From: Candidatus Pacearchaeota archaeon
Lineage (GTDB): Archaea; Nanobdellota; Nanobdellia; Pacearchaeales; GW2011-AR1
Length of the DNA: 64,000 bases
Assembly (NCBI GenBank): GCA_018303855.1
Contig: JAGVXI010000006.1
Location: 41,181-105,180, forward strand
Reading direction: 5' to 3'
In this document: positions 675 through 24,734 of the stretch, piece by piece
Layout of the letters: every line of letters starts with the position of its first letter
Position numbering within the stretch: the first letter of the stretch is position 1
Program-made: the position numbers and the translations under genes
The notes under the pieces: generated by a model
Told to the model about the DNA's origin: nothing
Databases searched by the model: none
Seen by the model: the letters and a program-made list of their open reading frames with translations, nothing else

Positions 675-762
675 ATTATCCTAAAATTCTTAATACATAT
701 ATAGTAAGTATTTTTAGTATTTATAATAACATTTATAAGTATAATTACATACTTAATAAGTA

Positions 763-3700
763 ATGGGAAGGGCTTTATTAGCAGATGCAAGTATAAATGA
801 GTTAAAGAATAGATTAGAGGAATGCGAAAAGAAAAAGCAATTTCTTAGGAATTATTTAAAAAAACTTCATTTAAACTATACATCAGGTAAAATTACTTAT
901 GCAACATATATTGAAACAGGACTTAAAAAGAGAGATGACAGAGATATAAAAGAATGGATTGAATTTTATGACAAAGAAATAAAAAAATGTGAAAATGAGA
1001 TAAAGAAAAAAACCCTTAAAAAAAATATCCCAATAGTCTTTATTTCTTCAATTATATTGATTATATTAGTAACAATGCTTTTTAATATCCAACCAAGATT
1101 TATTGGTTTTGCGATTAAAGGAGTTGAAAATGAACAAACATTTGTAAAAGAAGTTGCTCTTAAAATAACAGAATCAAGTGAATATGAATTTATCCCTCAA
1201 GCCCAAGGAATTTTATCCTCTTTAAGAGTCTCCGGCTCTTTTAAAAGTTCAGATGAGAAAGGCTCTGTTAAAATTTATCTCGATGATATTTTAATACTTA
1301 ATACATTACAAAAACAAAAACCAGGAATAACAGGAAGCGCAATAAGTTCTGGTGGTTTTTTTTCTAATCTTGGCAAAAAATTAACAATTACTGGTTTATC
1401 TGTTGATGAAAGCGATACCGGAAGTGAAAGTTCCTTAGATTCATCATCAACTGAAAGTTCACCTGATTCATCAGATATTTCATCAGAAGAATCATATTCA
1501 GAAGAACCACCAGAATCAAGTCCAGAAGCATCAGCAGAATCAGATTTAGCGGGTGAATCATCACAAGAATCATATTCAGAAGAAACAAGCGAGGAGACTT
1601 CTCAAATTTCTGAACAGGAAGAAAGCCCTTCCCAAGAACAAGAGATGTCTCCTCCAACTTCTGAAACTCCTCAACCAGAAATGCAAGAAGAAATAGAGCA
1701 AACAACTGAAGAAGAATTTTCAGCAAATGAAACAGAGCAAGAGTCAACTGAAGAAAAACCAGATGAAAAACCTGAGCAAAAACCAAAGCCTGAACCAGAA
1801 ATTTTAGAGATTTCATTTACAGATTTTTGCGATGAAACATGCGACTTAACAAAATTTGATTTAAACAAATCCTTTTATAAAATTAGAATTGAAATTGATG
1901 GCGCCACACTCTACCTTGACAAAATTGCATACAGCATGATAATTGCGCCACTTGAAGAACCAAAAGAAATTCCAGCAAACATAACAAGACCTGAAGTCAA
2001 CGCAACAGGCCCTGAAATTAACATAACAAAACCAGAACTTCAAATGAATATAACAAAAGAAAATAAAACCTTAATCTCAGGTTACCCAATACACACAAAA
2101 ACAATTCCAAATATATTCATACAAAAAAACAGCTTTAGAGAAATAAACTTAAATGAATATTTCTCAAATGCAGAACAATTTTTTGTCCTGCAGATAAAAG
2201 ACATATCAACAACAACTTATGACTACACAATAAGATTCCAACCAAATCAAGAATTTACAGGCATTAGAGAAACAACAATAATTGCAGAAAATGTATACGG
2301 GCAAATAGAAAGCAATGCTTTTAACATAATCGTAACAGAAGAAGCAATAGAAAAACTTCCTGAACCAGAAATAGCCCCAGAAATAAACATTACAAAACCA
2401 GAACAAAACATAACACCAATACTGCCTGAACCTAACATAACCATTTCTCCTGAAATAAATATGACAATTCCAAAAGCAAACATAACTATTCTGCCTAATA
2501 TAACTCAAATAGAAAATATAACAGAAATAAACATAACCTCCATTGAAAATATAACACAAGAAAATTTAACAATAACAACAGAGCAATACCAGGCTGTTCT
2601 CGGACAGCCGGTTAAATGGAAAAAAATTTTAGATCCAGAACAAAAAGGCATAGCCAAAGTTAAACTTCCAAAAGAAGCAGAAAACATTGAAATAACAAAG
2701 ATAAAAAACCAAACACAAGAAGATATAACACAAACATCTGAAATAACAACAATAACAGGCGGAGTTATTGGAGGAGGAAATCAAGAAAGCCTAATGGCAA
2801 GATTGTTCAAAAGACTTGTAGGAGCAATAACAGGGGCAGTAATTGGAGCAGAAGAACCTTTATCTGAAAAACCAACAAATGAAACCACTGAACAAGAAAA
2901 AGAAGTTGAAATAGAAATTGACGATGCTGAATCAGATTATGAAATTAAATATGAAACTCCTGCACCTTATGCAGTTGAAGAAGAAATTGAAAGAGGCAAA
3001 AGAATAACAATTACTGGCCCAGAAACAATTCATTATGAAAATGTTTTGGTATTTGCTAATTTATCAGAAAACTTTAACATAAAAGACACCTCTCGTATAA
3101 AAATTAAGTGGCTGGAAAATGAAAGCTATATCAAGCCGTTATTAGTCAATGATACCAACAACAATGGAATTTACGATTATATTGAGTTTATTGTTCCAAG
3201 ATTATCAAACCAAACATTTGAGATTATTATTGAAATAAGCAAAGCAGAACATCTCAATAGTAACAGGGAATTTATTTCAGATATTTACGAGCAGGTTAAG
3301 GCTCTTGACAATACCTGGAGTGAGACAATAAACAACAAGGAGTATATCAGGGTTACTTTTAATCAAAATTTAACATCCAACAAAGATATAACCCTATATC
3401 CACGAATCACATCTGGCAATCCAAAAATAGAAGTTTATGAAGTTGATGGAACAAACAAAATAGCAGAATTTTCTTCTTTAATTTCAAATCAATACAGTAC
3501 TATCTATCTCACAAATTTAATTTCTGAATCACAAGATGTTTTTGACTTAAAGATTATTTCTGGCTCTTTGCAAATCAACCATATTATTGACCCAGACATT
3601 GAAAGAATAAATGCAACAACCGCCTCATATGGCAGTACAGACATTTCTGATACTGCTTGCGGTGCAGGAAGCTTAGATGTAGATGACACAACTTATTGCG

Positions 3701-6408
3701 GGAATTCAATGAGCATTGAAGGAAGCGAAGCAGGATATGTAAATTCTACACATACTTATGCAATTCCTTCTGATGCAACAATTACAAGCACCTGGATATG
3801 CTCAAGATTCTCGCTTTCAGGCAAGCTTGACGATGACGCAGGAGATACAGTAAATATACAAGTAGCAGAAAATGATTCTTCTGGAACAGGAACTTGGACT
3901 TACACTTCATTAGACAGTTGCACATCTACTGGTTGCACTGCATGGGAAACAGAAGCAACCCGTTGTTATAATGTTTTTAGTGTAATAAACAACATTGCAA
4001 GGGCGAGTGCAGTTCAAATATCAATTAGAGCTTATCAAGCAGATGCAGATGCAAATCAAAACGTTGCAGTAGACCTAAATTATGTTAATATAACTTACAC
4101 CCAGCCAGTTGATGAAGAATACCCAATTTTCTCTAATTTGCGGGCAAATCCCTCTAATGCAACAACATACTCATCAACAGCCCTTTACAGATTTAATTCA
4201 ACAATTATTTCAACAAATGGAACAGTTGGAATAGAATTTAAGGCAGTAAATTATACAGCATCAAATCAAACAGCGGGAGGAAATGCAACTGAGTTCAATG
4301 TTTCTATTTCAGATCTTTCTGCAGGAGTTCATCCATATTACTGGCTTTCTTGGGGAAATGGCACAGCAAAAAAGTATAATGTAACTGCTTTACAATATTA
4401 CACAATTGCAAATGCCTCTCTTTCAGCTTCAACTTCAAGCTCTGCCGGTTTCACATTAACTTATCCGACAGAAACAATAATATCTATAAGTGAATCAAAT
4501 GCAGGAGACAATGATGTAATCTATACACTTTACAGAGACAATGTTTCTATTGGAACCGGTGAAACAGTAACATTGGGAGCTGGAAGCTACCATTACTTAT
4601 TAAATGCTTCTGGCGGGCAAAACTATTCCTATCCTTCATCTGGATTTTTAGACAGCGATTTGTTGGTAGTTTCGCAGGTGGCAGGAAAAGTAATTGTTTA
4701 TGTAAATAATACCCTGACAAATGGAACAATAAACTCAGGGCAAAGCATTTTGCTAAATGCCAGCTTAACAACAGGTGACAACTCTGGGAATATCACCCTA
4801 TATAATAATGGAACTTCAATTAATATCGGAACAAATGCCTCAACAATTTCTAACTTAACAACTTATGCTGATTTAGGCTCATTTAACATAACAGCATATT
4901 ATTCAGGAAGCCAAAACTATACATCTGATTGGGCAGATTCAGCAGACCAATTATGGGTTGATGTTAGTGCTCAATTAACTTCAGCTCCTCAAATTATTAA
5001 TCTAACAGTTTCAGAGGGTCCAGCAATAACATTAAATGAAGCAGGCAATATTAATGTAACAATAAATTTTACAGTAGAAGACGCCAATGGTGTTTCAAAT
5101 CTTAAACCATTAGCAAATGTAAGTTTCTTTAAACCAAGTGAAGATTCAAGAATCAATACAACATGCTTTAGAGAAACAGCAGCATCTGGGAATAATGCAA
5201 ATTTTTCATGCCAGGTTGATTTATGGTGGTTTGATGACGACGGAGAATGGGTTATTAATGCAACTATTTCAGATGCAGATGGATTAAGAGCAGAAAATAG
5301 CACCAAGAATATTACAGTAAATCCTTTAACAGGATTTAATCTTGGGCCAGGAAACATAACATTTGCCACATTAAATCCAGGAAGCCAAAACCAAACAGCA
5401 AACAATATCTTAATATTAAACAACACAGGAAACCAGGATTTTTTAAATGGAAGCATTACAATTAATGCAACAACACTATGGGGCGAAACAATTAATACAA
5501 TTGGCATTTATGCTGGAAACTTTACTGTTTCAAACACATCAACTGGGGGGAATGCCCAATGTGATATATCTGGAAAATGGGCATCAAGAATGAACGAAAG
5601 TATGTCATCATGGAGATATGTTGAGAGTGCAAACATCTCAAGAGGCAATTATACAAAAAATGATGGATTATCAGGGCAAGAGCAATTATACCTGTGTATT
5701 TATCAAATTGGAGCAGAATTAACTCAGCAGTCATATTCTATTAACAGAGCAGGCTCATGGACAATTCAAGCATTAAATATTTTGTCGCTTATTAAGGAAT
5801 TTGTTGGATTATTTGAAACCTCACTAACAATAAGAATTTTGTTGGTTGCTGTTGTTGTCAAGAAGAAAAAGCAGAAGAAAAAACAACAGGATAAAAAACA
5901 GGGGCTTGAAATTGAAACCAAGCTTAAAGGCGACAAACTTGCCAAAGCAATAACACTATTAATGGAAGAATTAAAAGAAAAACATAAATTAAAAGAAAAT
6001 GAAGTTGCACAGTTTTTAGAAATAAGCCAAAAAGAAAACATTCCAATAACCATCTTCAACAAAAATCTTGGAGCATTAGAAGCTCTGACAAAATACATGA
6101 AAGAAAATCTTAATATGACTTATAAAGAAATTGCAGATGCTCTTGAAAGAGACCAAAGAACAATCTGGACTTCTTATAAAAAAGCAAAAGAAAAACAACC
6201 AGAAGCATTAGAAATAAAAGCCACACAATTTTATCTGCCGATTGAAATATTAAAGAACAGGAAATTTACAATTTTAGAATCAGTAATACTTTATTTAAGA
6301 GAAAAACAAATGAAGCATAAGGAAATTGCTAAAATGCTTAATAGGGATGCAAGAAATATTCAAACAACTTATTCAAGAGCAATAAAAAAATTAGCAAATG
6401 AAAAGTAA
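763..6408 (+). CDS. Giant membrane-anchored surface glycoprotein with cytoplasmic N-terminal coiled coil, sequon-rich ectodomain and C-terminal tandem HTH domains
   Basis: 1881-aa ORF; N-terminal charged segment then TM (IPIVFISSIILIILVTMLF), Ser/Glu-rich stalk, many N-x-S/T sites, Ig-like/beta segments, C-terminal hydrophobic segment followed by KKKKQKKKQQDKK and two HTH-like modules. Confidence 0.85.
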   Translation: MGRALLADASINELKNRLEECEKKKQFLRNYLKKLHLNYTSGKITYATYIETGLKKRDDRDIKEWIEFYDKEIKKCENEIKKKTLKKNIPIVFISSIILIILVTMLFNIQPRFIGFAIKGVENEQTFVKEVALKITESSEYEFIPQAQGILSSLRVSGSFKSSDEKGSVKIYLDDILILNTLQKQKPGITGSAISSGGFFSNLGKKLTITGLSVDESDTGSESSLDSSSTESSPDSSDISSEESYSEEPPESSPEASAESDLAGESSQESYSEETSEETSQISEQEESPSQEQEMSPPTSETPQPEMQEEIEQTTEEEFSANETEQESTEEKPDEKPEQKPKPEPEILEISFTDFCDETCDLTKFDLNKSFYKIRIEIDGATLYLDKIAYSMIIAPLEEPKEIPANITRPEVNATGPEINITKPELQMNITKENKTLISGYPIHTKTIPNIFIQKNSFREINLNEYFSNAEQFFVLQIKDISTTTYDYTIRFQPNQEFTGIRETTIIAENVYGQIESNAFNIIVTEEAIEKLPEPEIAPEINITKPEQNITPILPEPNITISPEINMTIPKANITILPNITQIENITEINITSIENITQENLTITTEQYQAVLGQPVKWKKILDPEQKGIAKVKLPKEAENIEITKIKNQTQEDITQTSEITTITGGVIGGGNQESLMARLFKRLVGAITGAVIGAEEPLSEKPTNETTEQEKEVEIEIDDAESDYEIKYETPAPYAVEEEIERGKRITITGPETIHYENVLVFANLSENFNIKDTSRIKIKWLENESYIKPLLVNDTNNNGIYDYIEFIVPRLSNQTFEIIIEISKAEHLNSNREFISDIYEQVKALDNTWSETINNKEYIRVTFNQNLTSNKDITLYPRITSGNPKIEVYEVDGTNKIAEFSSLISNQYSTIYLTNLISESQDVFDLKIISGSLQINHIIDPDIERINATTASYGSTDISDTACGAGSLDVDDTTYCGNSMSIEGSEAGYVNSTHTYAIPSDATITSTWICSRFSLSGKLDDDAGDTVNIQVAENDSSGTGTWTYTSLDSCTSTGCTAWETEATRCYNVFSVINNIARASAVQISIRAYQADADANQNVAVDLNYVNITYTQPVDEEYPIFSNLRANPSNATTYSSTALYRFNSTIISTNGTVGIEFKAVNYTASNQTAGGNATEFNVSISDLSAGVHPYYWLSWGNGTAKKYNVTALQYYTIANASLSASTSSSAGFTLTYPTETIISISESNAGDNDVIYTLYRDNVSIGTGETVTLGAGSYHYLLNASGGQNYSYPSSGFLDSDLLVVSQVAGKVIVYVNNTLTNGTINSGQSILLNASLTTGDNSGNITLYNNGTSINIGTNASTISNLTTYADLGSFNITAYYSGSQNYTSDWADSADQLWVDVSAQLTSAPQIINLTVSEGPAITLNEAGNINVTINFTVEDANGVSNLKPLANVSFFKPSEDSRINTTCFRETAASGNNANFSCQVDLWWFDDDGEWVINATISDADGLRAENSTKNITVNPLTGFNLGPGNITFATLNPGSQNQTANNILILNNTGNQDFLNGSITINATTLWGETINTIGIYAGNFTVSNTSTGGNAQCDISGKWASRMNESMSSWRYVESANISRGNYTKNDGLSGQEQLYLCIYQIGAELTQQSYSINRAGSWTIQALNILSLIKEFVGLFETSLTIRILLVAVVVKKKKQKKKQQDKKQGLEIETKLKGDKLAKAITLLMEELKEKHKLKENEVAQFLEISQKENIPITIFNKNLGALEALTKYMKENLNMTYKEIADALERDQRTIWTSYKKAKEKQPEALEIKATQFYLPIEILKNRKFTILESVILYLREKQMKHKEIAKMLNRDARNIQTTYSRAIKKLANEK

Positions 6409-6673: not shown

Positions 6674-7669
6674 ATGAATAAAAAAGGTAAGCAATTCTTA
6701 ATTGCTCTATTTTTAATTATCATCTTATTATCAACATTATCTTTTGCGTCTGCAGGGTTTGCTGACTGGATTAGAGGAAAATTAACACCAACAGGAAAAG
6801 CAACAACTTATACTGGTATTAATATCACAGTTGGGGCTGGAAACGCACCGCAAATTATACAAATAGGGGGGGTTTTTTTAAATCATAGCATTTCAGATGT
6901 AACTCTAAATGAAGCAGGAAACGTAAATGTAACAGTAAATTTTTCAGTTACTGATGCAGATGGAATTTCAAATTTAAGGACTATTGCTAATGTGAGTTTT
7001 TTCAGGGTAGGTGAAACACAAAGAATTAATACCACATGCGGAAGATATGAATCATCAGGAAATAATGCGAACTATTCATGTCGAGTTGATTTATGGTGGT
7101 TTGACCAAGGTGGAACCTGGACAATAAATGCTACAATATCAGATGTCAGCGGGAATAGGGCTGAAAATAGCACTATAAATGTAACTATTGGAACTTTAAC
7201 AGGATTTAATCTTGGGCCAGGAAACATAACATTTGCAACTTTAAATCCAGGAGCAGCAAACTCAACACCTACTACAAATATGAGATTAAATAATACAGGA
7301 AACCAGGATTTTGCCTCTGATAGCATTAGTGTTAATGCAACAACATTATGGGGTGAAACAACCACAACAATAGGGCTTTATTCTGGAAACTTTACAATAA
7401 GTAATACAACAAGCGGGGGCAATATTCAGTGTGATTTATCAAGATCAACATTTAATGCTTCAGCAACATCATCTCGAATGAATGTTACTTCAGGAGCAAG
7501 TTATGTAATAATTAACGGAGCAAATTTATCAAGAGGAAATTCCACGATTAATAATGGCGCTGCAGGACAAACAAATTTGTATCTTTGCTTGACAATTGTT
7601 GGTTCAGAATTAAGCCAACAATCATATTCAACTTCCTTAGGAAAATCATGGACAATCCAAGCTGTATAA
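6674..7669 (+). CDS. Secreted protein paralogous to the distal ectodomain of the 1881-aa protein
   Basis: Signal peptide (FLIALFLIIILLSTLSFASA); LNEAGNVNVTVNF...SFF...NTTC...VDLWWFD...LTGFNLGPGNITFATLNPG...SWTIQA aligns along its length with the upstream protein. Confidence 0.85.
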   Translation: MNKKGKQFLIALFLIIILLSTLSFASAGFADWIRGKLTPTGKATTYTGINITVGAGNAPQIIQIGGVFLNHSISDVTLNEAGNVNVTVNFSVTDADGISNLRTIANVSFFRVGETQRINTTCGRYESSGNNANYSCRVDLWWFDQGGTWTINATISDVSGNRAENSTINVTIGTLTGFNLGPGNITFATLNPGAANSTPTTNMRLNNTGNQDFASDSISVNATTLWGETTTTIGLYSGNFTISNTTSGGNIQCDLSRSTFNASATSSRMNVTSGASYVIINGANLSRGNSTINNGAAGQTNLYLCLTIVGSELSQQSYSTSLGKSWTIQAV

Positions 7670-7689: not shown

Positions 7690-8265
7690 ATGGTTGATAA
7701 AAAAATGTGTATAAGGAAAAAATTTGTAATTTTGACAGCATTTGCTTTTACACTAACAATTATTTTATTTATTAACTCTATTCTTGCTTTTGCAATTTCA
7801 GCTCCTTATATGGGTGAAGAAAAACAAATTAAATTAATGCCAGGAGATTCAAGGAATATTGAGTTCACAGTCCAAGATGCAGGTGCAACAGCAGAAACTA
7901 ATGTAGCAGTTCAAATTCAAGAAGGCACTGAAATAATACAGATAACTGATGCATTTGATTCATATACTATCCCAGTTGGAGATAAAACTTCAGTAAATAC
8001 AAGAATAACTATCCCAAGTAATGCGCAGATAGGAGATGTATATAAAATAAAATTGGCATTTGCAGTAGCTGCTCCTGATGGAGGATTTGCATTTGGAACA
8101 AGCATAGTGCAAGAGTTTAGTGTTATTGTAGGCAAAGAAGAAACACCAGCTCCTGCTGTGCAACCAGAGAAAAAAGAGCCCAATACTCTTCTTTATGCAA
8201 TAGGAATTTTAACAATAATTATAATCTTGCTCATACTTTTTGTAATTAAAAAAAGAAGTCAGTAA
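7690..8265 (+). CDS. Exported membrane-anchored protein, C-terminal TM plus KKRSQ tail
   Basis: N-terminal signal, beta-rich middle, C-terminal TM LLYAIGILTIIIILLILFVIKKRSQ. Confidence 0.75.
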   Translation: MVDKKMCIRKKFVILTAFAFTLTIILFINSILAFAISAPYMGEEKQIKLMPGDSRNIEFTVQDAGATAETNVAVQIQEGTEIIQITDAFDSYTIPVGDKTSVNTRITIPSNAQIGDVYKIKLAFAVAAPDGGFAFGTSIVQEFSVIVGKEETPAPAVQPEKKEPNTLLYAIGILTIIIILLILFVIKKRSQ

Positions 8266-8502: not shown

Positions 8503-10239
8503 ATGGAGTGTAAACTTGTTTTGATAATGACATTATTTTTAATAACTGCAGTAATTATATCAGGCAATATATCAGCTTCATTTACAATAACAGGAAAAAG
8601 AATAGGAAATGCGTCAGTTACAGGAGATGTAACACAGCAAGCAAGTTTAAAAATAGTTCTTGATGCCAACCCTCCTAATATAACCTTAGTTGAACCGAAA
8701 AACAAAACCTACAATTACAAAAAAATTAGCCTAAATTTCTCAATTGTTGATGATTTATCACCTGTAAACAAAGTCTGGTATACTGTAAATAATGGGACCA
8801 CAAATACAACTATAACAGAAAATACAACAATAAATTTAAATGATAAAGCAAGCTACACCATTATCCTTTACGCGAATGATAGTTTAGGGCAATTAAATAG
8901 CACAAGAGTAACATTTTTTATAAATGAAAGTTATGGATGGACTATTACTTCAGATAAATACTCTTTCAATGATGACAGTTATAATAATGATAGTAGCCAG
9001 AATTATACGGCATGGTATGAAAATATGGGAAAAGAATATATGCAAAACATATCTGGCTTTACTCTTGAAATCCCAAATTACGGGAAAATTGTTTTCAATA
9101 CTCCATTAAATATAAGCCGCTGGCTGGATGATTTGGACGATAATTCTAATATTAATAATAATACTATTCTAATCAATTCCACTAATTTACCAGAGTTTAA
9201 TATGTCAGCAACCCTTTATTTATATAGTTTAAATTTCACAAATCCACGAATGTTAAGAGATGGTGTTGTATGCCCTTCAACAATCTGCACACAACAAAGT
9301 TATTCAGGAGGAAGCTTAATAGTTAATGTAACTGGATTTAGCGAATATCAAGCAGATGAGACTCCTTCTGAAGGTGGGGGAAGCGATGACAGCGGGACAG
9401 GCGGAGTTAGTGAAAGTGGAGGAGTAACAACTGTCATAACCCTGGATGAAATAAGTGTAGACAAACAAATGATTAATATAAAATTAAAGCAGGGTGAAAC
9501 AACAACAATAAAAAAAATAATAACCAATAAGTTAGATAGGAACCTGATTGTTGAAATAAAAACAAGCAGTTTGAGTGATTTCGTAATAATATCAAATGAA
9601 AAAATCAAATTAACTCCAAAAGAATCAAAAGAGGTTATTTTTGAAATAACTATTAAACCAGATACAACTCCTAATTTGTACCAAGGAGAACTAATTATTA
9701 CTACTGAAAAAACCCAGGAAAAAATACCAATAACAATAGAAGTTGAATCAACAAAATCCCTATTTGATATTGATGTAACAATCCCAACACAATCTTTAAG
9801 GGTTCTTCCTGGGCAAGAATTAATTGCTAACATAAATCTTTTTAATATAGGAGCTCCTAAAGGAGTTGATGTTTTGATTAATTATGATATAAGAAGTTAT
9901 GAAGGAAAAAGTATATATCAGTCATCAGAAAGTGTTGGCATAGAAACAAGAACAAGCCTTTCAAAAAATTTTCAAATACCAGAAGATGCTGATTTTGGAG
10001 ATTATATATTATATATTAAAGTTACATACGATGGGGAAGTAGCAAGCGCAAGCACATGGTTTTCTATTGGAAAAAAGCCACTGGAGAATATAACAATAGT
10101 GCTCTACCTTATAATTGCTATATTAATGGTTATGATCTTAATTGTTTTATATGAAATACAAAAGATTAAAAAATATCTAAAACATCATTATAAAGTAAAT
10201 GACAGCATGTTATCAGGGGAAATAACAATAAAAAAATAA
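8503..10239 (+). CDS. Surface protein with C-terminal TM anchor
   Basis: Signal peptide, N-glycosylation sequons, beta domains, C-terminal TM ITIVLYLIIAILMVMILIVLYEIQKIKKYLK. Confidence 0.8.
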   Translation: MECKLVLIMTLFLITAVIISGNISASFTITGKRIGNASVTGDVTQQASLKIVLDANPPNITLVEPKNKTYNYKKISLNFSIVDDLSPVNKVWYTVNNGTTNTTITENTTINLNDKASYTIILYANDSLGQLNSTRVTFFINESYGWTITSDKYSFNDDSYNNDSSQNYTAWYENMGKEYMQNISGFTLEIPNYGKIVFNTPLNISRWLDDLDDNSNINNNTILINSTNLPEFNMSATLYLYSLNFTNPRMLRDGVVCPSTICTQQSYSGGSLIVNVTGFSEYQADETPSEGGGSDDSGTGGVSESGGVTTVITLDEISVDKQMINIKLKQGETTTIKKIITNKLDRNLIVEIKTSSLSDFVIISNEKIKLTPKESKEVIFEITIKPDTTPNLYQGELIITTEKTQEKIPITIEVESTKSLFDIDVTIPTQSLRVLPGQELIANINLFNIGAPKGVDVLINYDIRSYEGKSIYQSSESVGIETRTSLSKNFQIPEDADFGDYILYIKVTYDGEVASASTWFSIGKKPLENITIVLYLIIAILMVMILIVLYEIQKIKKYLKHHYKVNDSMLSGEITIKK

Positions 10240-11139: not shown

Positions 11140-13809
11140 TTACTTCTTAAACCTTTTTCTATTGACAATCCCCAATTTTGCAAGATGATATCTCCTTAAT
11201 TTCAAAATCCTTCTAATCATAAAAAATGCAAAGATAACAAACACTAAAATTATCACTCCAGTTATAAATGTATCCCTTGTGCCTACTTCACCGCCAAAGA
11301 TTGCAAGCCCAGTGGGAGTTAAAAAAATGTTTTCCTGGATAAATGTTGAATAAATTTCTGAGTTTAAATTAATCAGCAGATTAAAATCCCCTTTCAAATT
11401 AGAAGCAATAGGAAGAAGGGTTTCAAATTCAGCCAAAGAATTTGCTGAAATTGTTCTTTGCTCTATCATCTCTGCAACTTTTTCATCATCAGAATTATAT
11501 AATAAAAACTGCAATTCAACAGTTTGATCAGTTCCTGAGAGTTCTTCCAAAGAATAAACAATCCTAACCATATCTGCCCCTGCTCTTTTTACATCAATAA
11601 GTTTAAGCCCTATCTTTTGCTCAATAATCTCTGCATTAAAACTCACGCCATCACTTATTTCTTTGCATGTTAAAGCAACCCCCAATTCATATTCATCTGC
11701 ACGTGCATTATCAGGCACTTTTAAGTCAAATACAAAATTATATTCTTCCCCCGCAGATAAACTTTTGGTACCTGAAACAGAAAGCCAATCAGCATAAGAA
11801 CCAGTTGACTCTATTTTACAATCATTCAAAAAGACAGTTCCAGTATTTTTGGCACTTAGAGTAATTTTCTTTGAATCTCCTGGGTTAACAATTAAATCAT
11901 AAATTGATGCAAGAGTTAAAGAGATTGTTGCTTCTGGAGTCTGCTGGATTATTGTGGTGCTTCCTCCGCCCCCACCTCCTCCGCCGCCTCCACCAGAAGT
12001 TCCGCTAGAAGTTGAAACACTAAAACTTGAGCTTGCATTATCTTTAGAACCAAAAGTATTATTTGCATAAACATTAAACACAAAATCGGCGTCAATAGTA
12101 ACACCAAAATCTCCACTTATAGAGCCATTAGAGCAACTTATGCTTGTGTTTGCCACTTCAAGGTTTGTTCCTCTGTAAACATTATAAATACAACTCACAT
12201 TGTCACCAACCACCCCAACATTAATTGGAATTCCTGTCCTGCTTAATTTTGCTCCAGAAGGTTCGTTTATTGTTATAGCAACGCCAGTGGCATCTATATC
12301 AAAGCTCACATTATCACTTCCAAGCTTCCCATATGTATCATTTGTGTAAATTTTTAAATTGTGACTTCCTTGAGAAGTACTAAATGTTGTATTCACGCAA
12401 CCTGTTAAACTTATATTTAAGCCATTATCTAACCAATACCAGCATGCATCTAAATTACCATCGCTATCGCTTACAGTATATGTTAAATTCAAAGATTCAT
12501 TAGCTAAATATAAAGTATTTTGTGGTTCAATAAGTGTAATTGCCGGAGCAGAATTTAGCAATGCATATCCAATTGAAACATTATAAACTGAGGGGGTTAT
12601 AGAAGAGCTAGGAGTTGTAAAATCTACTTTATACTGGAAATATCTTCCCTGCAGGCTGAAACTGGCCTGATTAACGCCCTGCCAACCCCCATCGCTACAA
12701 TCTACCTGGGTGCAATTTTTAACCTGAAATGATAAATTCGTATAGTCTAAAACCGAGTTAAGTCCAAAAACATTTCCGTTGCCCCCATTAAAATTAGTGT
12801 CATTTACTTTTATAAATATTACTCCCCCATTAACAGACCTTAAAACATCTTCGCTTCCATCAACTACATAAATATTATTCTGCTCATCAATATAAGCGAC
12901 AAGTCCATCGTTGCTGTCTCCTGCTCCATTAATATCATCATTAACCAATGTCCAACTAACCCCATTATCAGTAGAGCTCCAGAAATCCTGCCTATCAATA
13001 ATATAAAGATTGTTATTTGAGTCCATAGCCATATCATCTGCATTATTTCCTATGCCTCCATTAAAATCATCTTTAACAAGATTCCATGTAACACCCTGAT
13101 CAAGAGAATTCCAAACATCAGATGCTCCATCTACTACAGAAATAGCACCAGAATTATTTATAACAAGTCCAAATACAACCCCATTCCCACCATTAAAATT
13201 AGAAATTAATTTTGAAAAAGTTACCCCCCCGTCAGTGGATCTCCAAACATCTTGGTCTCCTTCTATAATATAAATATAATTATTGCTATCAATTCCTAAA
13301 ACATCCCCGTTCTGTCCTTCTGCCCCATTATAATCATCATTAATCTTGACCCATGTTAAACCCCTGTCTAAAGATGTCCACAAATCCTGATTAAAAAGCA
13401 AAAATAATCGCGTTGAGTTTTTCTCAAGATCAGTGGCCCCATTTCCTTCTCCTCCATTATAATCATCTTTAACAAGATTCCAACTAATCCCAGAATCAGA
13501 AGATTTCCAAAAATCTGATTGAACATCCACTGCATAAAGGACCGGTAATGAGAGGGTTACGCCAAGGTAACTTAAATTATTCCAAACAGCATCAGTTCCA
13601 GCATCAAAAATCCTGCTTATATAAGTTCCAGTTAAATTGCTTCCAGAGAGAACAACCGCACTTCCATTGTAAGTCGTATTTGAATATGTTCCTAAATCAA
13701 AATTATCTTGATTTAAATCTGAGAACATCGCAGCATAAATTAATGCTATTAACAGAACTAAAACAAAACAAAATATAAGACTAACTAATACAAAATTCCC
13801 CTTTTTCAT
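11140..13809 (-). CDS. Surface protein with six Asp-box (BNR-like) repeats, poly-Gly linker and C-terminal TM
   Basis: Repeats SSDSGISW, SLDRGLTW, STDGGVTF, SLDQGVTW, STDNGVSW, SVNGGVIF; GGGGGGGGGGG linker; C-terminal TM with basic tail. Confidence 0.8.
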   Translation of the reverse strand: MKKGNFVLVSLIFCFVLVLLIALIYAAMFSDLNQDNFDLGTYSNTTYNGSAVVLSGSNLTGTYISRIFDAGTDAVWNNLSYLGVTLSLPVLYAVDVQSDFWKSSDSGISWNLVKDDYNGGEGNGATDLEKNSTRLFLLFNQDLWTSLDRGLTWVKINDDYNGAEGQNGDVLGIDSNNYIYIIEGDQDVWRSTDGGVTFSKLISNFNGGNGVVFGLVINNSGAISVVDGASDVWNSLDQGVTWNLVKDDFNGGIGNNADDMAMDSNNNLYIIDRQDFWSSTDNGVSWTLVNDDINGAGDSNDGLVAYIDEQNNIYVVDGSEDVLRSVNGGVIFIKVNDTNFNGGNGNVFGLNSVLDYTNLSFQVKNCTQVDCSDGGWQGVNQASFSLQGRYFQYKVDFTTPSSSITPSVYNVSIGYALLNSAPAITLIEPQNTLYLANESLNLTYTVSDSDGNLDACWYWLDNGLNISLTGCVNTTFSTSQGSHNLKIYTNDTYGKLGSDNVSFDIDATGVAITINEPSGAKLSRTGIPINVGVVGDNVSCIYNVYRGTNLEVANTSISCSNGSISGDFGVTIDADFVFNVYANNTFGSKDNASSSFSVSTSSGTSGGGGGGGGGGGSTTIIQQTPEATISLTLASIYDLIVNPGDSKKITLSAKNTGTVFLNDCKIESTGSYADWLSVSGTKSLSAGEEYNFVFDLKVPDNARADEYELGVALTCKEISDGVSFNAEIIEQKIGLKLIDVKRAGADMVRIVYSLEELSGTDQTVELQFLLYNSDDEKVAEMIEQRTISANSLAEFETLLPIASNLKGDFNLLINLNSEIYSTFIQENIFLTPTGLAIFGGEVGTRDTFITGVIILVFVIFAFFMIRRILKLRRYHLAKLGIVNRKRFKK

Positions 13810-23900: not shown

Positions 23901-24734
23901 GCCTCAACCAAGTTTCTTTATTATTTATTAAGCCTCAATCAAGAGTCTATGTATTATCTAAAAAGAGGAAATGCCCAACCCCATGTTTATCCAAAGGATT
24001 TAGAAAATCTGAAAATACCTCTTCCTCAAATATCAATCCAAAATGAAGCAGTGCATAAATTAGATAAAATGGGTAGCGAACTGATTAAATTAAAAAAGGT
24101 TAACGAGAATCTTATTAAAGATAAAGAAATAAAATTAAAAGAAATAATCACAAATAAGTACCCTACTGAAAAATTAAGTAACTTATGTGAGGTTGTTAGA
24201 GGAGGGTCGCCAAGACCTAAAGGTAGCCCATTATATTTCTCAAAAAAAGATACGGGAATACACTGGATTTCTATATCTGATTTAACGAGATATAAAAAAG
24301 GTAAATTTATCACTAATACAATAGAATTTTTGACAGAAGAAGGTAAGTCAAAGAGCAGGTACTTGGAGAAAGGGTCTCTTGTCTTAACAAATAGTGGAAC
24401 GGTAGGAATTCCAGCATTCTTAGGGATTAATGGTTGTATCCATGATGGTTACCTAACTTTCCTTAATCTTTCTAAGAAAATATCTAATAATTATTTATAT
24501 TATGTTTTTAACGCTATGAAAGAGCATTTAGAAAGCATTGCACCTGAAGGAAACCAAAAGAATCTAAACACAACTATTGTTGGAAATTTGGAAATTGCTT
24601 TGCCCCCAGAAAAGAAACAAGAAGAAATGGTTAGCCTTCTTGATAAAATCAACAAGGAAATAGAAGAAAATAATTTAAAGATAAAGAAAATTCAAGAAGA
24701 ACAACAAAACGCCCTAAATGAGATTCTTAATTAG
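20943..24734 (+). CDS. Single-chain restriction-modification-specificity enzyme (Type IIG/Type I-like fusion)
   Basis: N-terminal nuclease-like LDIQVLDKNNKSFLMIECKTW; N6-MTase LDYASGSGHFL and VTNPPYSV; two HsdS-like target-recognition regions. The track start at 20721 is rejected in favour of ATG 20943/20946. Confidence 0.88.
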   Translation: MMEINRESLSNFLSLIEFKLKDGEEETYSKKYRKHNAYEIVIKVNRNFKSSLIDYGNKINVGRRTITNFSKPENFVILECVDRLLEKGYSPEKIFLEKDWRQGHNEGGKLDIQVLDKNNKSFLMIECKTWDTEYKKYVQETYMDGSQIFPYFNNDKNTKFLCLYASYLDGEKIFYKSSIIKVTEDMRDSATSQEAFERWKPQVFETNGLFEDVAEPYQPKFTGLKKEDLVSLTKDDGGDIFNRFAEILRKNVVSDKTNAYNKIFNLFLCKIVDEYKTNEKDKLKFQWEEGETNEEVLLRLNDLYKEGMNEYLNLKISSVDIEKIDKQLKNLATDKEKEIIKQMFIEQKLYTSNDFAFKEVFDKKTFDFNCVVVKEVVKLLERYKIKYETKQQFLGDFFESLLNTGIKQETGQFFTPVPITHFICSSLPIYEIIKEKNANRENHVLPYVLDYASGSGHFLTEIMEIINYYMDKIDDNFFNNAYARKEFNRNKDNFLWAEEYIYGIEKDYRLAKTTKIATFLNGDGEAQIVFGDGLDSFSESKDYMGLLKSERKGKDNQVFDVIVTNPPYSVNGFKTTLRNGKSSFDLFEFLSEKSDEIECLFVERAKQLLKNGGVAGIVLPSSILSNKGIKTKTREFILKNFEVVGIIELGSKTFMKTGTNTIILFLKKLNNLKGLEVKEHLDNAFKSKRDVTINGIKNPIDTYLKEVYNSKFSDFLSILNGKPNEKIIKLDIYKEYASEFYKIKEIKDLQRKRDFNELSEEEQKKVLTARLCSYISEKEKEKLYFFILAYAQSPVLVKIPREIRKQREFLGYKFSERRGKEGLKYLDEEEKTTSLYDVEGVDNPEKVNYYIKNNFLGKKTEIAESLQGVVFYQKLSSLIDFRQTEFNKTINLNPKVEFESKYEKVKLKNNYEVEKGTSITEEQTRKGGIPVIAGGKQPAYYHNSSNREGYTITISGSGANAGYVSFFDKPIFASDCSTIKSTNERIASTKFLYYLLSLNQESMYYLKRGNAQPHVYPKDLENLKIPLPQISIQNEAVHKLDKMGSELIKLKKVNENLIKDKEIKLKEIITNKYPTEKLSNLCEVVRGGSPRPKGSPLYFSKKDTGIHWISISDLTRYKKGKFITNTIEFLTEEGKSKSRYLEKGSLVLTNSGTVGIPAFLGINGCIHDGYLTFLNLSKKISNNYLYYVFNAMKEHLESIAPEGNQKNLNTTIVGNLEIALPPEKKQEEMVSLLDKINKEIEENNLKIKKIQEEQQNALNEILN

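Follow-up and report, generated by a model that had tools for sequence, protein, structure and literature searches.

A giant DPANN surface protein ending in a tandem helix-turn-helix tail: a probable membrane-tethered repressor of its own operon

In the 64,000-nucleotide stretch of Candidatus Pacearchaeota DNA analyzed here (contig JAGVXI010000006.1; hereafter, the window), one gene encodes a giant surface protein that ends in two helix-turn-helix (HTH) modules. The question this locus raises is what a DNA-binding-like tail does on a surface protein. DPANN surface proteins are thought to mediate host contact, and very little is known of how uncultivated DPANN archaea regulate their genes. Based on its relatives, we conclude that the window protein is a fusion of a DPANN surface-operon pair, comprising a signal-anchored surface protein and its dedicated tandem-HTH regulator. 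It is probably a membrane-tethered autoregulator that would repress the four-gene surface operon A-B-C-D (Table 1).

Architecture of the surface protein and its tail

Gene A is a single frame without interruption, and every element that the preliminary description had assigned to one giant protein is found in its 1881 residues. For the N-terminal domain, AlphaFold2 predicts a helical hairpin; no Pfam family scored above cut-off, and a fold search returned nothing beyond generic coiled coils. The first hydrophobic segment is strong (Kyte-Doolittle 2.89 over residues 89–107) with KKKTLKKN directly before it, as expected of the N-terminal membrane helix proposed earlier. The ectodomain is indeed sequon-rich, with 69 sequons against 26.9 ± 4.6 in shuffled sequences. 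Its membrane-proximal Ig-like region is conserved together with the tail and resembles the C-terminus of the gene B product.

Table 1 Features of the surface operon and its promoter in the window
Feature	Coordinates	Strand	Evidence
Operator-like site 1 (TACTTACTATATATGTATT), centre ~62 nt upstream of start codon	692..710	-	Zero-mismatch; PWM site in homologs
TATA box (TTTATAAG), centre -27.5	732..739	+	Position shared among fused promoters
Operator-like site 2 (TACTTATTAAGTATGTAAT), between TATA and ATG	744..762	-	Zero-mismatch; helically phased spacing
Gene A: 1881-aa surface protein, C-terminal tandem HTH	763..6408	+	ORF call, translation, Pfam
N-terminal cytoplasmic helical domain, residues 1-88	763..1026	+	Family HMM, AlphaFold2
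Transmembrane helix 1, residues 89-108, N-in	1027..1086	+	Kyte-Doolittle 2.89 over 19 aa; KKKTLKKN before
Ectodomain, 69 sequons, net charge -120	1093..5757	+	Sequence count
Membrane-proximal Ig-like region ending GSWTIQ	5203..5772	+	Alignments, neighbor table
Second hydrophobic segment, putative TM 2, residues 1681-1699	5803..5859	+	Second-ranked 19-aa segment, weak
Polybasic stop-transfer-like linker KKKKQKKKQQDKKQG	5860..5904	+	Sequence, alignment of homologs
Helical linker ahead of HTH pair	5905..6039	+	AlphaFold2 helices, lower confidence
HTH module 1, sigma region 4-like	6040..6225	+	Pfam, AlphaFold2, alignment
HTH module 2, sigma region 4-like	6235..6405	+	Pfam Sigma70_r4_2 best stretch residues 1841-1877; AlphaFold2
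Gene B: 331-aa secreted protein ending GKSWTIQAV, without tail	6674..7669	+	Gene order in relatives
Gene C: 191-aa NEW3-like protein, C-terminal TM	7690..8265	+	Domain search, gene order
Gene D: 578-aa Ig-like surface protein, C-terminal TM	8503..10239	+	Domain search, gene order

The two C-terminal modules align with each other at a BLOSUM62 score of 73, compared to 24 for the best of 1000 shuffles. Pfam Sigma70_r4_2 matches the window tail in two stretches (E 4.8e-9, above the curated cut-off) and was found in all 39 tails tested. AlphaFold2 predicts two three-helix HTH units with pLDDT mostly >90, and Pfam, NCBIfam, and AlphaFold2 agree in identifying two sigma region 4-like HTH modules in the tail. 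Foldseek matched it to sigma region 4 (SigmaE/SigR) and to RcsB HTHs, including SigmaE region 4 on DNA (prob 1.00 with a single tail module); the E-values of the structural matches are weak because each module is only ~50 residues. The two alignable HTH-like modules read from the sequence alone are thus confirmed, and Pfam and AlphaFold2 exclude a tail that does not fold as HTH. Sigma-70 region 2 was not matched, with tail matches confined to the region 4 parts of the models.

The earlier proposal of an N-in/C-in topology is clear in its first half, the orientation of helix 1, and weaker in its second. The segment at residues 1681–1699 (VGLFETSLTIRILLVAVVV) is the second most hydrophobic 19-aa stretch of the protein (2.06) and is directly followed by KKKKQKKKQQDKK. 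The predicted segment and its polybasic follow-on are therefore present, but the segment is a weak candidate for spanning the membrane: it contains Glu and Arg, and AlphaFold2 confidence is low across it. Among homologs, it is mostly ~10–17 residues and often charged; most members fail a simple insertion estimate, and a clear second helix of 19–24 residues appears only in three (L068, L069, and L071). This weakness is the one point in favor of an exported tail whose HTH fold is incidental, a reading to which we give hardly any credence. Many unfused surface proteins stop exactly at GSW[TS]I, whereas the fused forms carry a hydrophobic and polybasic segment at the junction, which makes that stretch specific to fused forms. 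The ectodomain has a net charge of -120 and the tail of +9, and operator-like sites described below lie at the gene's own promoter. Together, the junction segment, charge, and operator evidence favor a cytoplasmic tail, and N-in/C-in is the sole topology compatible with a tail that binds DNA.

Fused and stand-alone forms of the tandem HTH

The preliminary description had suggested looking for the same tail on other surface proteins. A single-sequence search found it in 31 of 143 same-family genomes, at the very end of ~40 giant proteins, and also in nine named MAGs, most labeled Pacearchaeota or Nanoarchaeota. Nearly all of these tails are the last part of a large ORF, commonly 1000–3500 aa, with one open frame reaching 8071 aa. 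Since the same architecture recurs in about 30 independent genomes, a fusion, assembly, or frameshift artifact at 5780–5870, raised earlier as a possible explanation, is ruled out. Two other possibilities were rejected: an internal start yielding a free tail, as the alignment shows no conservation of the internal Met (LLMEEL), and a viral source, as relatives were absent from the viral contigs searched. Three fused proteins (L038, L055, and L123) have two consecutive tandem-HTH tails, giving four HTH modules, and the 8071-codon open frame ending in an HTH tail belongs to L058/L206 (G090:C84).

Across the phylum, a profile built from 39 tails matched in 127 of the 286 genomes searched. Outside the window's family, nearly all matches listed are stand-alone ORFs of ~150–220 aa. 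Elsewhere in the class, the stand-alone tandem HTH gene (~180 aa) sits directly upstream of a surface-protein gene and overlaps it. In 60 class loci, which include 56 solo HTH genes with a neighbor, 53 of these genes overlap the next same-strand gene, 19 of them by exactly 4 nt, with overlaps of other lengths possibly inflated by the choice of ORF start. A strict surface-protein test was passed by 39 of these 56 neighbors versus 29 of 414 other genes. An HMM of the N-terminal domain, made from the fused proteins, matches the gene directly downstream of the solo HTH in 14 loci (E down to 1e-28), so the same partners exist both separate and fused. It is this pairing, a stand-alone HTH beside a surface protein with the same N-domain, that points to the window protein as a fused operon pair. 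The order differs, being HTH then surface protein in solo loci and surface protein then HTH within the fused chain. On a tree, fused and solo HTH forms are largely, though not wholly, separate, and the fused copy L119 groups as sister to its solo neighbor, so more than one fusion event is probable.

The overlapping genes, with an HTH protein followed by a single-pass N-in membrane partner, and the sigma-region-4-like fold of the HTH could also indicate a sigma/anti-sigma-like pairing. Here the N-domain would sequester the HTH at the membrane until a signal released it, and fusion would only fix the stoichiometry. The N-domain common to 14 downstream partners fits such a role, but most stand-alone HTH partners lack it, and its fold matches are generic coiled coils only. 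We regard this pairing as unlikely.

Downstream of most fused genes in the window's family, the B-C-D order is kept. Genes for a tRNA synthetase class II-like protein (HGTP_anticodon) are found repeatedly near gene A, often in divergent orientation (L053:10922-12610), and the window, L037, L038, and L052 encode similar N-termini (MAFIVKK.IHG.EYYYL) upstream of gene A. The window also encodes, at 11140-13809 (-), an 889-aa surface protein with Sortilin-Vps10/BNR repeats and a C-terminal TM. In some families, solo HTH genes precede ~250-aa secreted proteins (L116, L118, L129, L131, L132, and L139), several of which end in YYFYVEL-like motifs; some of these loci have very strong operators.

An operator-like motif and a model for autoregulation

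Upstream of both the fused and the stand-alone genes lies a common pseudo-palindromic motif of roughly 20 bp, mostly in at least two helically phased copies. Its form is TACTTA-n-TATgTaTgTAtt at fused genes and TACTTACAtaatAnGTAt at solo genes. A blind spaced-dyad count recovered ATAC-8-TAAG in 38 of 81 upstream regions versus 9 of 411 controls. In cross-validation, a PWM trained on fused promoters found sites in 17 of 56 stand-alone promoters (2 of 560 shuffled), and one trained on stand-alone promoters found them in 15 of 25 fused promoters (2 of 250 shuffled). A conserved PWM site lies upstream of 21 of 25 fused homologs; the scan found none in the other four (L056, L059, L065, and L070). 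AT-matched control regions also score, at up to 14/85, mostly as a result of divergent genes having their promoter region in common with an HTH gene. Only 17 of 411 control upstream regions have a match, 13 of them sharing an HTH-gene intergenic region, which rules out a general core-promoter element.

An exact-motif scan of the 143 genomes gave 28 matches, versus 0 for the reversed pattern, with 27 directly upstream of such genes. The remaining match (G090, 24223-24240) is an operator-like site just downstream of the tail rather than upstream of an N-domain gene. The exact motif is present in 17 of 31 tail-positive and 5 of 112 tail-negative family genomes (Fisher p 9e-10), though related genomes share promoters and counts across genomes are not independent. 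In all five motif-positive, tail-negative genomes, the motif precedes an N-domain gene cut by a contig end, one of them with a frameshift. The off-contig matches examined, other than the one in G090, also precede N-domain genes, mostly truncated in this way. At solo loci L118, L129, L132, and L139 the motif is present though the N-domain HMM misses the partner, which indicates that the motif follows the HTH. From this association we infer that the tail binds the motif.

At least two sites occur in 20 of 25 fused and 32 of 56 solo upstream regions. Their center-to-center distances cluster at 20–23, 30–34, 40–45, 51–54, and 63–65 bp (n=84; period about 10.5–10.7), and such multiples of ~10.5 bp are characteristic of proteins bound along a single face of B-DNA. 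The two window sites are 52 bp apart and flank the TATA box. Among the fused promoters, the TATA box is most often centered at -27.5 relative to the ATG, TTTATAA falls in a single 5-nt bin (-30 to -26) in 11 of 25, and one site lies at about -10 and another at -44 or -62; a TATA box at this distance implies a leaderless transcript. In the 860-kb assembly, there is no further site with fewer than two mismatches to the window pattern. Because the pattern derives from the two sites of the window itself, their zero-mismatch is by construction, and only the lack of further good sites is informative. In L069, gene A is preceded by seven operator-like sites in tandem at 20–22 bp spacing. Divergent-clade fused genes without near-start operators (L056, L059, L064, L065, and L067) have a recurring ACACCCTRG-type element upstream (as ACCCTAG in L067), with repeats in L056 and L065. 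In L059, L064, and L067 it is part of a stable hairpin immediately preceding the ATG (z -2.8 to -5.5) that has no Rfam match, and it is possibly a 5' UTR RNA element.

Two readings of the tail put regulation aside or second. HTH domains on membrane proteins can serve as protein adaptors, as in RodZ, and by that precedent the tail might bind a cytoplasmic protein instead of DNA. We consider this highly improbable given the conserved, phased palindromic motif that follows the HTH in fused and solo forms alike. Alternatively, a unique operator pair could anchor the locus to the envelope, consistent with the single good site pair in this genome; this is also very unlikely, as a tether has no need of sites that bracket the TATA box and start codon, and the solo HTH forms are not membrane-bound. 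The regulatory role suggested in the preliminary description is strongly supported by the class-wide tandem-HTH family, its linkage to surface genes, and the motif shared at their own promoters.

With the HTH tail linked to a site pair at the start of its own gene, the surface protein probably controls its own production. We consider it likely that the fusion protein acts from the membrane as a repressor of its own promoter, through the tail at the paired operators. In this model, the tail would be in the cytoplasm, with the two HTH modules probably each contacting one half-site of an inverted-repeat operator of roughly 20 bp. The two operators, on one DNA face, bracket the TATA box, and a tail bound to them would block TBP/TFB or the start site, repressing A-B-C-D. 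In most relatives, the HTH is a free protein whose translation overlaps that of the surface protein; in the window's family, the regulator is covalently joined to it, so that every surface molecule would take its own feedback element to the membrane. That the tail represses rather than activates is our reading of the site positions. The archaeal repressor EnfR binds a 36-bp pseudo-palindromic site with a footprint from -44 to +3 over the start (PMC10570040). By analogy, sites upstream of TATA and between TATA and a leaderless start suggest occlusion of initiation and favor negative autoregulation.

Whether the ectodomain also informs the tail is a further matter. As a strict surface sensor, the ectodomain would detect host contact or envelope state and alter DNA binding across the membrane, in the manner of ToxR or CadC. 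The large extracellular part, the cytoplasmic domains at both ends, and the dedicated promoter sites would suit a sensor, but no signal or ligand domain was found, stand-alone HTH versions work without a covalent ectodomain, and the short second segment would be a poor signal conduit, so we find strict sensing doubtful. More broadly, and only tentatively, the protein could be self-counting, with each molecule taking the repressor of its operon to the membrane, surface occupancy or ectodomain state setting transcription, and the two-gene version serving as a dedicated DPANN regulator/surface-protein module across the class. A plain production-feedback role fits equally well as sensing.

Comparison with known systems

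In the literature searched, we did not find a giant surface protein with a C-terminal tandem HTH described, and the shared upstream motif, mostly in at least two helically phased copies at fused and stand-alone genes, is new. Read together, the evidence from protein family, gene order, fusion, and promoter motif pairs a regulator with a likely target and a likely operator in one system. A short protein and 71 bp of DNA would therefore allow a DPANN regulatory circuit to be tested directly in vitro. If true, this would also be an instance in which a large surface protein controls its own gene from the membrane.

Bacterial ECF sigma/membrane anti-sigma operons likewise pair a sigma-region-4-like protein with a single-pass N-in partner in overlapping genes. 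Unlike these, the window system has no sigma region 2, archaeal transcription uses TBP/TFB, and the HTH probably binds an operator. ArnR-type regulators are small, act on other genes, are not themselves surface proteins, and belong to a different HTH family. The likeness to Sulfolobus ArnR of the archaellum network is that of archaeal membrane-bound HTH regulators of surface structures (PMC6396743). EnfR/Tfx proteins (PDB 8hnp; PMC10570040) share an archaeal sigma-region-4-like HTH, with a weak sequence match to the tail (E 0.004). However, they are soluble, with a single HTH per chain, and dimerize through an acidic alpha+beta C-terminal domain that is absent here, the tail ending at HTH 2. 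ToxR, CadC, and TcpP combine an HTH and a membrane anchor in one polypeptide that works from the membrane (PMC10269533), and a survey of such transmembrane regulators makes no mention of DPANN or Nanoarchaeota in its main text (PMC10269533). Like members of this class, the window protein has a recognizable DNA-binding domain and at least one membrane-spanning region (TM 1); the conserved motif points, indirectly, to control over the transcription of target genes. It differs from ToxR, CadC, and TcpP in that its HTH is a C-terminal tandem pair, placed behind a putative second membrane segment on a giant surface protein.
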